A stretch of 56,077 nucleotides of DNA from Bacteroidales bacterium (GTDB taxonomy: Bacteria > Bacteroidota > Bacteroidia > Bacteroidales > JAAYUG01), in assembly GCA_012517825.1 (NCBI GenBank), contig JAAYUG010000173.1:1-56077 (forward strand), read 5' to 3'. The translations under genes were made by a program, and so were the position numbers. This document shows positions 5,205 through 28,569 of the stretch, one piece after another; positions within the stretch are counted from its first letter, which is position 1; every line of letters begins with the position of its first letter. The notes below the pieces were generated by a model that was given only the letters and a program-made list of their open reading frames with translations, ran no database searches and was not told the DNA's origin.

Positions 5205-6314
5205 ATGAAGAAGATTTCGGTGATGTTGCTTGCCTGGATTTTTTGTGCATTTGCCCTATCGGGCCAGCCTGCCCAGCCTTATAGTTTTCCTTCGGTTCCC
5301 GGTTACCATACCCTGTTGTGTGATTTCCATATCCACACAGTTTTTTCTGACGGACTTGTTTGGCCAACCATCCGGGTTGATGAGGCTCTTCGCGAAGGGC
5401 TTGATGCCATAGCCATTACGGATCATCTGGAATACACTCCCCACGACAGGGACATTCCGGCCGTTGATTTTAACCGTTCATACGAAATAGCAGCCGAATA
5501 CGGATCCGAAAAAGGCCTTATTGTTATTCATGGTTCTGAAATTACACGCGATATGCCTCCCGGCCATCTGAATGCCCTTTTTCTTTCCAACAGCAACGCC
5601 CTGAAAAAAGATGATCCGCTGGAGGCAATCCGCGAAGCAAAAAAGCAAGGGGCATGGATTTTCTGGAACCATCCCATGTGGACTGCCCAGAAACCGGACG
5701 GCATGGCTGAACTGACACCTCTTCATAAACAGCTTCTGAAAGAAAATCTGTTTGACGGGATTGAAGTTGTAAATGATTACAATTTCTCCGACGAAGCCTT
5801 TGAAATTGCTCTGAAAAACAATCTCACCATTCTGGCCAATTCCGATATTCACGGGATGATTGAATGGAGCTTCCCGGAGCCCCAAACAGGCCACCGGCCC
5901 ATTACTCTTGTTTTTGCCCGTGAAAAGTCGGCAGATGCCATCAGAGAAGCTCTGGAAAACCATCGTACCGTCATATGGCATGCCCAACTTCTCGCCGGTA
6001 CTCAGGAATTCCTTGAACCCCTGATCAAAGCCTCTCTTGTTGTCGAATCGGCAGTTTATGAGCCAAAGACCTCCGTTGTTTCCGTAACATTGAGCAATAA
6101 AAGCAGCCAGGATTTGTTCATCGAAAACATCGGCAGGTTTACCCTGCATAACACAGGGCCCTTCTTTAAAATCAAAGCCGGTGAAAAATATGTTGTGGAA
6201 GTGAAGACCATTTCAAATCTCAGCCAGTTTGAGCTTCCTCTCAGGATATTGAACGCTTATATTGCTCCGGGGAAGAATCTCAGACTAAGTTATCTGATCA
6301 GCCCGGAAAAATAG
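5205..6314 (+). CDS. Exported PHP-domain phosphoesterase (paralogue 1)
   Basis: Metal-dependent PHP-family protein with a signal peptide (MKKISVMLLAWIFCAFALSG). Metal-ligand motifs are visible in order: CDFHIHTVFSDG, AITDH, GSEITRD, FWNHPMW and NSDIH. The reading frame is open from 5112, overlapping cysN, but the first 31 residues are hydrophilic and precede the signal peptide, so ATG 5205 is preferred. After the PHP domain (to about residue 280) there is a beta-rich C-terminal part. It is a clear paralogue of the protein at 21542-22627, roughly half identical by eye. Likely a periplasmic phosphatase or phosphodiesterase. Substrate unknown, and its link to the sulfate genes may be only positional. 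Confidence 0.85.
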   Translation: MKKISVMLLAWIFCAFALSGQPAQPYSFPSVPGYHTLLCDFHIHTVFSDGLVWPTIRVDEALREGLDAIAITDHLEYTPHDRDIPAVDFNRSYEIAAEYGSEKGLIVIHGSEITRDMPPGHLNALFLSNSNALKKDDPLEAIREAKKQGAWIFWNHPMWTAQKPDGMAELTPLHKQLLKENLFDGIEVVNDYNFSDEAFEIALKNNLTILANSDIHGMIEWSFPEPQTGHRPITLVFAREKSADAIREALENHRTVIWHAQLLAGTQEFLEPLIKASLVVESAVYEPKTSVVSVTLSNKSSQDLFIENIGRFTLHNTGPFFKIKAGEKYVVEVKTISNLSQFELPLRILNAYIAPGKNLRLSYLISPEK

Positions 6315-6323
6315 TTTTACGTA

Positions 6324-7376
6324 ATGATCCTTATCCGCGAAGCCACGGAAGCTGACAACGAAGCCCTGCAACAGCTGAACAGGGAAGCCCCTATGCGCGG
6401 AAACCTCACCATTCGCGTGGAAAGGATCCCTGATTTTTTTGCCATCAACCGGAGAATTGGCCCGTTTAAAACGATGGTAGCTGAAACCGGAGGACGAATT
6501 GCCGGTGTGCTCACCATAGCCAGGCATCCTGCCGTTCTGGAAGGTAAAGTTCAGGAGATCGGAGTAATTCGTGATATTAAAATTCACCCCGATTTTCGCG
6601 GGTCAACGGCCCTGTTCCGCCTGCTGTATACCTTTCTGCAGTATGCCCTCAACCAGAAATGGAATATCCTGTATGCCACAGCCCTGAAAGGAAATGCAAG
6701 GGTCATCAGCCTCATGGGAGGCAGGGCCGGCCTTCCCTCCCTGGTGCCGGCAGGACATTTTATTCAGTTTAATTTCTTTCCTAAAAGACGGTATAAAGGA
6801 ACAACCCGCTATCAGATTATAACAGAGGAACCGTCTGACGATTTACTTGCTTTTTTCAACGCATGGTATAGCCGGTACAAGTTCGGTCCGGTTATTTCGG
6901 CCGAATCCCTGCACGACTCTGTTGTGCTCTCCGCATGGAAAAACAATGTGCGGCATGCCTCCATTGTTCTGCAGGATGTTTCCAATTTCCGGCAGAACGT
7001 GGTCGAAGACTGGTCATTTACTACCGGCCTGGTAATCCGCCTCTGGCAGTTTTTCCATATGTTCCTCCCTCTGCCCCTTCCTCCCCGGAAAGGAAAACCT
7101 TTACGGTGCTTGTATGTTCGTTATTTTGCGGCTACCGAAGGTACTGCCTGTGCTCTGGCATCCCTGATGACCAGAGCACGTAAAATGGCCTGGGATGGCA
7201 GGTACACCTTTTTGTCAGCAGGTCTACATTACCGCGATCCGTTGCTGAAAATTTTCAGAAAACACCCGTCAATTCCCGCCAGGCTATATGCTTTCATCCT
7301 GAGCCTGGAAGATAACAATGCATCCGCCAGGTGCATTTCCGGGGACATTCTTTTCAATGATTTTACCCTGATATAA
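6324..7376 (+). CDS. GNAT-like N-acetyltransferase domain protein
   Basis: A 350-residue cytoplasmic protein whose first 150 residues look like a GNAT fold: MILIREATEADNEALQQLNR, an acceptor strand AGVLTIAR, then VIRDIKIHPDFRGS, which corresponds to the acetyl-CoA-binding segment. The second half could be another degenerate GNAT-like domain, but no confident motif is visible. It starts 9 bases after the PHP gene, so the two are probably co-transcribed. Substrate unknown. Confidence 0.72.
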   Translation: MILIREATEADNEALQQLNREAPMRGNLTIRVERIPDFFAINRRIGPFKTMVAETGGRIAGVLTIARHPAVLEGKVQEIGVIRDIKIHPDFRGSTALFRLLYTFLQYALNQKWNILYATALKGNARVISLMGGRAGLPSLVPAGHFIQFNFFPKRRYKGTTRYQIITEEPSDDLLAFFNAWYSRYKFGPVISAESLHDSVVLSAWKNNVRHASIVLQDVSNFRQNVVEDWSFTTGLVIRLWQFFHMFLPLPLPPRKGKPLRCLYVRYFAATEGTACALASLMTRARKMAWDGRYTFLSAGLHYRDPLLKIFRKHPSIPARLYAFILSLEDNNASARCISGDILFNDFTLI

Positions 7377-7380
7377 CCTG

Positions 7381-7512
7381 CATTGCGCTTTAATTGCGCA
7401 ATGTGTCAAAGGAGATGCTTTCATTTCGTTTCAGCGGGGTTAAGCCGGATTCCTGCACGTAAGAGCCACCAACTCAGCATCAGGTCGCTTAAAATTCCTG
7501 ATGCGTAATCCG
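7381..7512 (+). repeat. Structured intergenic element, copy 1
   Basis: Non-coding element between two convergent genes, starting 4 bases after the GNAT stop. Hairpin 1: CATTGCGC (7381-7388) with GCGCAATG (7396-7403). Core: TTCGTTTCAGCGGGGTT (7425-7441). Outer stem: CGGATT (7446-7451) with AATCCG (7507-7512). Inner hairpin: GCATCAGG (7477-7484) with CCTGATGC (7497-7504). The same architecture, with an identical 17-base core but changed and still complementary stems, occurs inverted at 28204-28341. Hairpin 1 might also act as a terminator for the GNAT gene, though no T tract follows. Confidence 0.75.
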
Positions 7513-7558
7513 TGATAAATCGTTTTAGGCCTTCAAACTGGCGACAAAAAGAAGTAAA

Positions 7559-21541: not shown

Positions 21542-22627
21542 CTAAAAGAACCGTACCCTAAGGTTTTTGTCTGCCCCTATGAACCAGTTCGTTACAAAAA
21601 ATTCTTCATCTGGTTTAACTTTCATGGAAATTGATTCGCCGGGGTGGAATACGACCGATTTACCCGGGACTGAAAGCGAAGAAAGCTCAAAAGTGAAATC
21701 ACTCATATTCTTAAGGGTAAGTGCCGTTTCCCCTTTGATAGTCTTGCCAGGTTTATCAACTATAACAGATTTTCTGAAGAGTTCTTGAAGATAAACTTCC
21801 TTTCCTGCCACGTACTTGGCGAACCATGCAACTGTGCGGCCTGCAAATAAAGCTTCCCGGATATTTTCTGAGGCCGTATCTTTTGAAAAAACAAGCGTCA
21901 TAGGCCTGTGCCATTGCTCCATCGAATAGTAATGGGATGTAAAATCGTGTATGTCTGAATTACCAAGAATGGTAAGGTTGTTTTCCAAACACCAGTGAAG
22001 TGCAATCGGGTACCATTCTTTTTCATTAAAAACTTCGATGCCCGAAATAACGTGTTTTTTTATCAGGTCTTTGTGCATGGAAAACATAATGCAACTGTCA
22101 GGTTGTTGTGCTGTCCAGCACGGGTGGTTCCAGAAAATAAATGCTCCCTGATTTTTGGCTTCCATGATGGCTCCCATCGGGTCAGGAACATTGATTTTAT
22201 CGATATTTTTCACGAAAAGCACATTGAGGTGTCCAGGAGGCATATCTCGGGTAATTTCTGCCCCCCGGATCAGCACAATACCCAATTCTTTTGCTTTTTG
22301 ATAAGCAATTTCATAAGAACTGTTGAAAGATCCTCCTACGAAGGGTTTATGGGGAGTATACTCAATATGGTCTGTGATAGCTATCGCGTCCAATCCTTCT
22401 TCCCATGCCTCCTCAATCCGAACGTCGGGCCATACAATACCATCAGAAAACACAGTGTGCATATGAAAATCGCACTTAAGGGTCTTGTATCCGTCCAGAT
22501 CAGGTATTCGTATTGTATTCCTGAAATGTTTTTTCTCCAGCTCAGGTACCTGAATATTCGCTATCTGCGCTATACCAGTTACGGCAATAAGATACAGCAA
22601 CGTAATGAAACTAATCCGTTTTTTCAT
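21542..22627 (-). CDS. Exported PHP-domain phosphoesterase (paralogue 2)
   Basis: 361-residue PHP-family protein with a signal peptide (MKKRISFITLLYLIAVTGIAQ). Metal-site motifs match paralogue 1 at 5205: CDFHMHTVFSDG, AITDH, GAEITRD, FWNHPCW and NSDIH. It lies between susD and the GDPD gene. In that setting it could remove phosphate from imported or partly cleaved organophosphate, but this is inference. It is separated from susD by a hairpin and a GGTTAG-rich leader, so its level may differ from that of susCD. Confidence 0.86.
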   Translation of the reverse strand: MKKRISFITLLYLIAVTGIAQIANIQVPELEKKHFRNTIRIPDLDGYKTLKCDFHMHTVFSDGIVWPDVRIEEAWEEGLDAIAITDHIEYTPHKPFVGGSFNSSYEIAYQKAKELGIVLIRGAEITRDMPPGHLNVLFVKNIDKINVPDPMGAIMEAKNQGAFIFWNHPCWTAQQPDSCIMFSMHKDLIKKHVISGIEVFNEKEWYPIALHWCLENNLTILGNSDIHDFTSHYYSMEQWHRPMTLVFSKDTASENIREALFAGRTVAWFAKYVAGKEVYLQELFRKSVIVDKPGKTIKGETALTLKNMSDFTFELSSLSVPGKSVVFHPGESISMKVKPDEEFFVTNWFIGADKNLRVRFF

Positions 22628-28006: not shown

Positions 28007-28203
28007 TGGCCGCCTTATTTGCAGTTTATTATGTGAAATTTATTTTTGGATGTTTTAATCTTTTAAATAGCATTAAAAACACCTTTACCTAATCCAAAGA
28101 AAAATGAAACAAAATGTTAATCCTAATAAGATCAATAACATTAGTTCATACACTATAAAAAAAGTTTAACATAAATCAGCAATTGATCAGCGAAGTATTT
28201 TAA

Positions 28204-28341
28204 GCCCGGATTGCGCATCAGGAGCGAAAGCGAACTGATGCGCAGTGGGTCAGCCTTTAACGCTGGCATCCGGGCAAACCCCGCTGAAACGAAGTGAAAG
28301 CGGCCCTTGCGGCACATTGCTCAGTTTTTTTAAGAGCAATG
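28204..28341 (-). repeat. Structured intergenic element, copy 2 (inverted)
   Basis: Reverse-orientation copy of the element at 7381-7512. Hairpin 1 arms: 28315-28322 and 28334-28341 (CATTGCTC with GAGCAATG on the + strand). Core 28277-28293 is the exact reverse complement of the 17-base core of copy 1. Outer stem: GCCCGGAT (28204-28211) with ATCCGGGC (28268-28275). Inner hairpin: GCGCATCAG (28213-28221) with CTGATGCGC (28235-28243), containing a small GC-GAAA-GC hairpin. Stems differ from copy 1 but stay paired. Confidence 0.75.
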
Positions 28342-28569
28342 TAGATTTAGAAAGGTTTAACTGAAACTCAGGATGTAAAATCCGGCCTGACGATAATTAG
28401 CACAAGGGATATTATGAATTATCCCAAGTACTTCGCAATATCCAGAAGGCAAGGTGATAAAAGAGTTATTTGAGGAGGCTATCACAACTTTTGTTCTGGA
28501 AAATAGTAACATCTCTGTGCATGATTGCGTTTCAATCCTGCTGCCCTGTCAGGGTAGATAAAATAAAAA

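Follow-up and report, generated by a model that had tools for sequence, protein, structure and literature searches.

The question raised by this locus is what kind of element is represented by two related, hairpin-rich sequences lying in inverted orientation in a single contig. The window, that is the whole stretch of 56,077 nucleotides that was analysed, is an entire contig (C173) of the host genome (G000), a 3.30 Mb draft in 207 contigs. The first-pass annotation had placed the two copies at 7381-7512 and 28204-28341, which is the right place; judged against further copies, the ends lie slightly outside these coordinates, at 7377-7514 (plus strand) and 28205-28345 (minus strand). The proteins encoded in the window, SusD-like, TonB-plug and others, are consistent with Bacteroidota.

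Copy 1 comprises 138 bp, as delimited by boundary motifs compared with those of other copies, and is degenerate. Its first base is directly preceded by the TAA stop codon of the open reading frame at 6324-7376. The left-end hairpin CATTGCGC / GCGCAATG (7381-7403, plus strand, identified by sequence, fold and alignment A3) is formed by the left terminal repeat and an inverted copy of the same repeat. It is followed by the 17-base core TTCGTTTCAGCGGGGTT (7425-7441, plus strand), which constitutes the loop and 3' arm of the third hairpin and which, as had been claimed, is identical in both window copies according to sequence and pairwise alignment. The central GTTAA spacer between the element halves (7439-7443, plus strand; consensus GCGGG-GTTAA-CCC) was recognised from the sequence and from its middle box, GGGTTAACCC, conserved across families. 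The right half (7444-7514, plus strand, from sequence and fold) ends in the right terminal repeat and contains an outer stem CGGAT/ATCCG around a small hairpin and a long hairpin GCATCAGG / CCTGATGC. The flanks, TATAA on the left (7372-7376, plus strand) and ATAAA on the right (7515-7519), are apparently a decayed target-site duplication with 2 of 5 positions equal.

Copy 2, inverted relative to copy 1, comprises 141 bp, is near the consensus and sits in a non-coding gap with a minus-strand gene on either side. All its parts are on the minus strand: the left-end hairpin CATTGCTC / GAGCAATG (28315-28342, from sequence and fold) and the right half (28205-28273, from sequence, fold and alignment), the latter with an outer stem GCCCGGAT/ATCCGGGC, a small hairpin and a long hairpin TGCGCATCAG/CTGATGCGCA whose loop is the conserved TTCGCTT..CTCC. 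The right flank CTTAA (28200-28204) and the left flank CTAAA (28346-28350) are equal at 4 of 5 positions and are a candidate 5-bp target-site duplication on flank comparison. The two copies are alignable over ~140 columns, and both fold better than their dinucleotide shuffles, with z values of -2.2 (copy 1) and, more strongly, -5.2 (copy 2). The stems named in the first-pass annotation are present and paired in each copy; only the inner one, given as 8 bp versus 9 bp, needs correction, being 10 bp and not 9 in copy 2.

Measured from CCC to GGG, most full units are 136-142 bp long, with ~139 bp as the typical length. The unit contains no genes. Its 5' part comprises, in order, a left hairpin (CATTGCGCA/TGCGCAATG), a mini-hairpin GCCnnnnGGC, a third hairpin (CCGCT/AGCGG) and the central GGGTTAACCC-type box, which splits the element into two halves. 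The 3' part comprises the outer stem (CCCGGAT/ATCCGGG) around the small and the long hairpin, followed by GGG-NTTAA. Unit length is 139 bp in 8 of 9 copies of a sister species of the same genus (G001), 135-138 bp in G234, 138-142 bp in most host single copies and near 139 bp in several unrelated genomes, the unit being longer in G246, G433 and G462. The terminal inverted repeats are imperfect, of ~16 bp and CCCRNATTNNGCATTA-like, and each runs on into its own inverted copy, which gives the element a hairpin at either end. Between the left and right consensus ends, 165 positions are identical when these are taken within a genome versus 150.4 across genomes (p 0.001, 14 genomes or loci). The repeats are genome-specific: CCCAAAATTGTCATTA in G433, where it is paired with CCCAAAATTGTCATTT, CCCGCATT in G723 and CCCATATTACGCATTA in G246.

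With copy 1 as query, 60 blastn matches were identified in the host genome, with non-self E values down to 2e-17, far beyond a chance result, and a profile search of the loci identified at least 89 copies at 52 loci, almost all of them intergenic. Many of these copies form head-to-tail arrays, whose unit measures ~145 bp where the left hairpin is included and ~107 bp where it is lacking, and in which neighbouring units share a single NTTAA spacer. At least 10 arrays reach a contig end, so that the element breaks contigs and creates false ORFs in the assembly. Among the 29 loci with clear neighbours, the gene on the 3' side of the element points towards it in 24 and the neighbouring genes are divergent in 1, counts that rest on heuristic ORF calling.

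The sites occupied in the host were compared, through the flanks of the loci, against 1.46 Mb of G001. All 10 syntenic sites, both window sites included, are empty there, G001 keeping the neighbouring genes at ~70-90% identity with no element between them. The genes adjoining host copies and those at 20 G001 loci (flanks of 1.5-2 kb) include no shared neighbour, the only matches being repeat-derived. Copies in other families place the element boundaries after NTTAN and before CCC on the left, and after GGG and before NTTAN on the right. The end positions were picked from motif similarity once the flanks looked alike, ahead of the formal duplication test, in which exact 5-bp flanking repeats were identified in 8 of 10 G001 copies versus 1.19 expected with right flanks shuffled within the genome, and in 16 of 29 copies elsewhere versus 6.47 in within-genome shuffles; these counts were reached by 0 of 20,000 shuffles. 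The 5-mers duplicated in G001 are ATTAA, TTTAA, ATTAT, ATAAA, TTAAA, TTCAA and TTGAA. Flanking 5-mers vary from copy to copy yet agree on both sides of one copy; their difference between copies is what a duplicated target would give, and not a fixed crossover site. An IS608-like target without duplication (left TTAAYCC) was dropped, because the copies of the relatives carry matching 5-mers on both sides. Host single copies present the exact 5-bp duplication in 0 of 18 cases (mean 2.67 of 5 positions, p 0.12 versus shuffles), and the claim of a target duplication therefore rests on the relatives; the lack of exact duplications in the host is read as decay, given that many of its single copies are also degenerate in sequence.

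Covariance-model searches of the genome and its relatives, proposed in the first-pass annotation, returned further copies, and the stems of these copies covary. The compensatory changes claimed from two copies are real and large, far above controls: among 49 host copies, double changes were identified in 13 of 29 pairs, versus 5.6 in shuffles and 3-6 with partners slid, and in a joint model (R2) 16 pairs carry double changes versus 7.1 shuffled (94 cells versus 28). The first covariance model (R1) identified 31 copies in G001 and none in 58 other relatives searched. The G001 copies have the same layout with other stems, TATGCATTAG/CTAATGCATA replacing TGCGCATCAG/CTGATGCGCA and CCGAT/ATCGG replacing CCGCT/AGCGG. 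With the R2 model, matches were obtained in 7 of the 393 genomes sampled from the order, at least 9 each in G234 and G246, and with a third model (R3) in 10 of the 395 sampled from the class, at least 9 each in G433 and G723; these prevalences are lower bounds, because the strict filters applied in scans of more than 40 genomes lose weak matches. The relatives, belonging to other families of the order and class, present the same two-half plan with rewritten stems, often in multiple copies. Between lineages the stem arms change as blocks, while the families differ little in unit length, in the GGGTTAACCC box and in a TTCGCTT..CTCC-like loop. Beyond these groups, Rfam 15 contained no match for the element at gathering score or loose E-values, a DNA pattern run against 84,980 species genomes was matched 4 times, roughly as often as expected by chance, and the element was not found in the phage and plasmid collections searched.

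The element is read here, with good confidence, as a non-autonomous, MITE-like DNA transposon of ~139 bp that would be moved in trans by a transposase, probably of the DDE type. This type is considered the most likely because the target duplication is of a staggered 5 bp, a stagger indicative of DDE enzymes. The enzyme would be encoded elsewhere, would bind the terminal repeats and would move the element into TTA-rich intergenic sites, sometimes directly after a stop codon. In view of the 5-bp duplication and the AT-rich target, the enzyme may belong to a DDE family such as IS1380 or IS1634. The search for an autonomous copy in 1.46 Mb of G001, by facing terminal repeats more than 250 bp apart, returned a tandem array and chance pairs with no convincing candidate, and no large dispersed repeat other than tandem arrays was seen in the same sequence. 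The arrays may have formed by insertion of a new copy into the TTAA target beside an older one, followed by unequal recombination; such an origin by insertion at an adjoining TTAA is suggested because neighbouring units share one 5-bp spacer.

The covariation of the stems would follow if the arms of the hairpins reproduce a single end motif, itself changing from one lineage to the next, and the four arms tend to change together because each terminal repeat precedes its own inverted copy. The likeness of the arms may be maintained by selection for binding or by palindrome-templated repair. Stem mismatches of the G-U and A-C types number 26 and 20 in alignment A4, 26 and 17 in A2, and 12 and 20 in A5; a fold acting as RNA of one strand would be expected to tolerate G-U mismatches more than A-C. 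The similar frequency of both types, the absence of Rfam matches and the turnover of sites argue for a constraint or homogenisation acting on DNA palindromes and not on RNA. Strong base-pair covariation, usually taken for functional RNA, would here come from palindromes of mobile DNA, and the two can be distinguished by the test of G-U versus A-C together with target duplications.

A purely mutational origin of the covariation, where imperfect palindromes are corrected by template switching in replication with no selection on fold or binding, is given a modest probability. It is compatible with a transposon, as it concerns only why the stems match, and it agrees with the equal frequencies of the two mismatch types and with arms that change as blocks between lineages. 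Pure mutation, however, does not predict what is observed in the TTCGCTT..CTCC-like loop, the GGGTTAACCC box and the unit length, all of them remaining similar while the stems change.

The DDE reading explains the conserved layout only partly, because a DDE enzyme needs no conserved internal hairpins. A wider proposal, rather unlikely as it stands, is that of class-wide orphan mini-transposons with a transposase that would recognise their ends as folds or palindromes, the two-half plan of ~139 bp with its GGGTTAACCC box being kept across many families and nearly all of the stem sequence being rewritten in each lineage in step with the enzyme. If true, recognition guided by structure would be newly combined with a staggered 5-bp target duplication, and hairpin ends read by the transposase would offer, in many families, a natural series in which enzyme and ends have co-evolved as pairs.

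Movement as single-stranded DNA, by a Y1 transposase (IS200/IS605 or RAYT) that reads the hairpins of a REP/BIME- or PATE-like element, is improbable. Subterminal hairpins are present at both ends, the left flank is of the TTAA type, arrays could form as the right end recreates the target, and Y1 genes are present in G000, G001 and G002. The 5-bp target duplications of the relatives speak against it, since transposition by the IS200/IS605 Y1 enzymes makes no target duplication, and so do the matching terminal inverted repeats. Moreover, the Y1 genes, one in each of these three draft and incomplete genomes, are not flanked by the element, and none was identified inside the loci analysed around elements in other genomes. 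That of the host is a Y1-transposase-like domain placed in frame within a methyltransferase-like ORF (G000:C51:1-2336, L053), with short tandem repeats, SIPAGE- and QSRDALGT-like and also in frame, at its borders.

The structured RNA suggested in the first-pass annotation, as a cis-regulatory or small RNA that also spreads and is selected on its fold, is very improbable and was abandoned. The strong covariation, the conserved hairpin loop TTCGCTT..CTCC and the good folding energies would suit it. Against it are the lack of Rfam matches, the lack of an excess of G-U over A-C mismatches on the modelled strand, sites that differ even between sister species, copies close-packed in arrays, and an orientation mostly antiparallel to the 3'-side gene (in 24 of 29 loci) and not that of a UTR with one sense.

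Sites of the integron attC kind, which would fold as single strands and be recombined by a tyrosine recombinase of the IntI type, are hardly credible. In their favour, an IntI-like recombinase is encoded in the host (C168:2977-4110, close to the end of a contig; 223 bits with TIGR02249, whose cut-off is 265), hairpin units do form arrays and two truncated integrase copies, reduced to roughly the final 90 aa, are joined to copies of the element (G000:C116:3284-3622, L044; G000:C68:36720-37172, L207). Against them, the junction of both fusions is identical and they therefore represent one event copied, the intact integrase has no adjoining element on its short contig, its relatives in 18 other genomes have no tandem arrays of the element, the flanking 5-mers vary by site and agree across one copy, unlike a fixed crossover site, and the head-to-tail arrays contain no cassette genes between units.

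Two observations concern the integrases themselves. The IntI-like gene is followed by non-coding sequence (ACGCTATTTTATAGCG...TATAAAC.AGTT) that two families of the order have in conserved form (G000:C168:4107-4214, L204, and L209:2317-2420), possibly as an attI-like site. Seven tandem copies of a 69-bp unit, ~93% alike, lie upstream of an integrase-like gene in a different genome of this order (L224:133-623).

The preferred transposon is of a kind already known in bacteria. Correia elements, ERIC, YPAL and RUP are bacterial MITE families, of which Correia, ERIC and RUP use TA. The element resembles them in being short, non-coding, dispersed and intergenic, with terminal inverted repeats, target duplications and folding potential, and differs in its 5-bp NTTAN duplications, its CCC...GGG ends, each end being itself a hairpin, and its two-half layout with the GGGTTAACCC box, one layout that is recognisable class-wide. 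The definition of MITE is that of PMC4596501, where BrickBuilt and MITE239/464/700 of Porphyromonas gingivalis are described as MITE-like intergenic repeats, some with internal tandem repeats, of ~10-20 copies each, with ends GAGACC... or ACGTCA... linked to IS5-family elements and no BLASTn match outside the species. These are likewise MITE-like intergenic repeats in a Bacteroidetes species, although the BrickBuilt units are much longer than the element and the P. gingivalis ends are unlike CCCRNATTNNGCATTA. MITECca01 of Cardinium, of ~240 bp, is clearly derived from the resident ISCca4 of the IS982 family (PMC9769881); it is also a lineage-specific MITE burst in a Bacteroidetes genome, whereas for the element described here the parental IS was not found and the family spans many genera.

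REPs are palindromic intergenic sequences of 20-40 bp with a GTAG or CGTC tag, found with RAYT transposases (PMC3733652, PMC2817692). The element shares with REPs and BIMEs the palindromic intergenic repeats, both dispersed and clustered; it differs in its length of ~139 bp, the lack of a GTAG/CGTC tag, the terminal inverted repeats, the 5-bp duplications and the lack of a linked RAYT. The REP/MITE-like mobile repeat offered earlier as one option thus holds on its MITE side, through the dispersed copies, the empty sister sites, the terminal inverted repeats and the 5-bp duplications in relatives, and fails as a strict REP, having neither the RAYT link nor the 20-40 bp length. No published description of this family was found in the literature searched, which excluded subscription journals and ISfinder. 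Its unusual features are the class-wide reach with one architecture, the hairpin-built ends, the near-fixed length with rewritten sequence and the arrays sharing a target duplication.

Other repeats were identified during the analysis. The first is a tandem unit of ~330 bp in which the 5' half of the element is fused to a different module with a hairpin GTTACTTTTTTG...CAAAAAAGTAACC; it is found in G001 (C40:4800-6850, L085, and in C27 and C8) and in the host (C122, C126 and C67). In G026 (L209), two copies of a hairpin module resembling this one (GTTCTTTCTTG...CAAGAAAGAACC) lie upstream of an integrase. Finally, the window contains an inverted pair of 88 bp with 73% identity (5612-5699 and 22097-22184), probably two paralogous coding regions.
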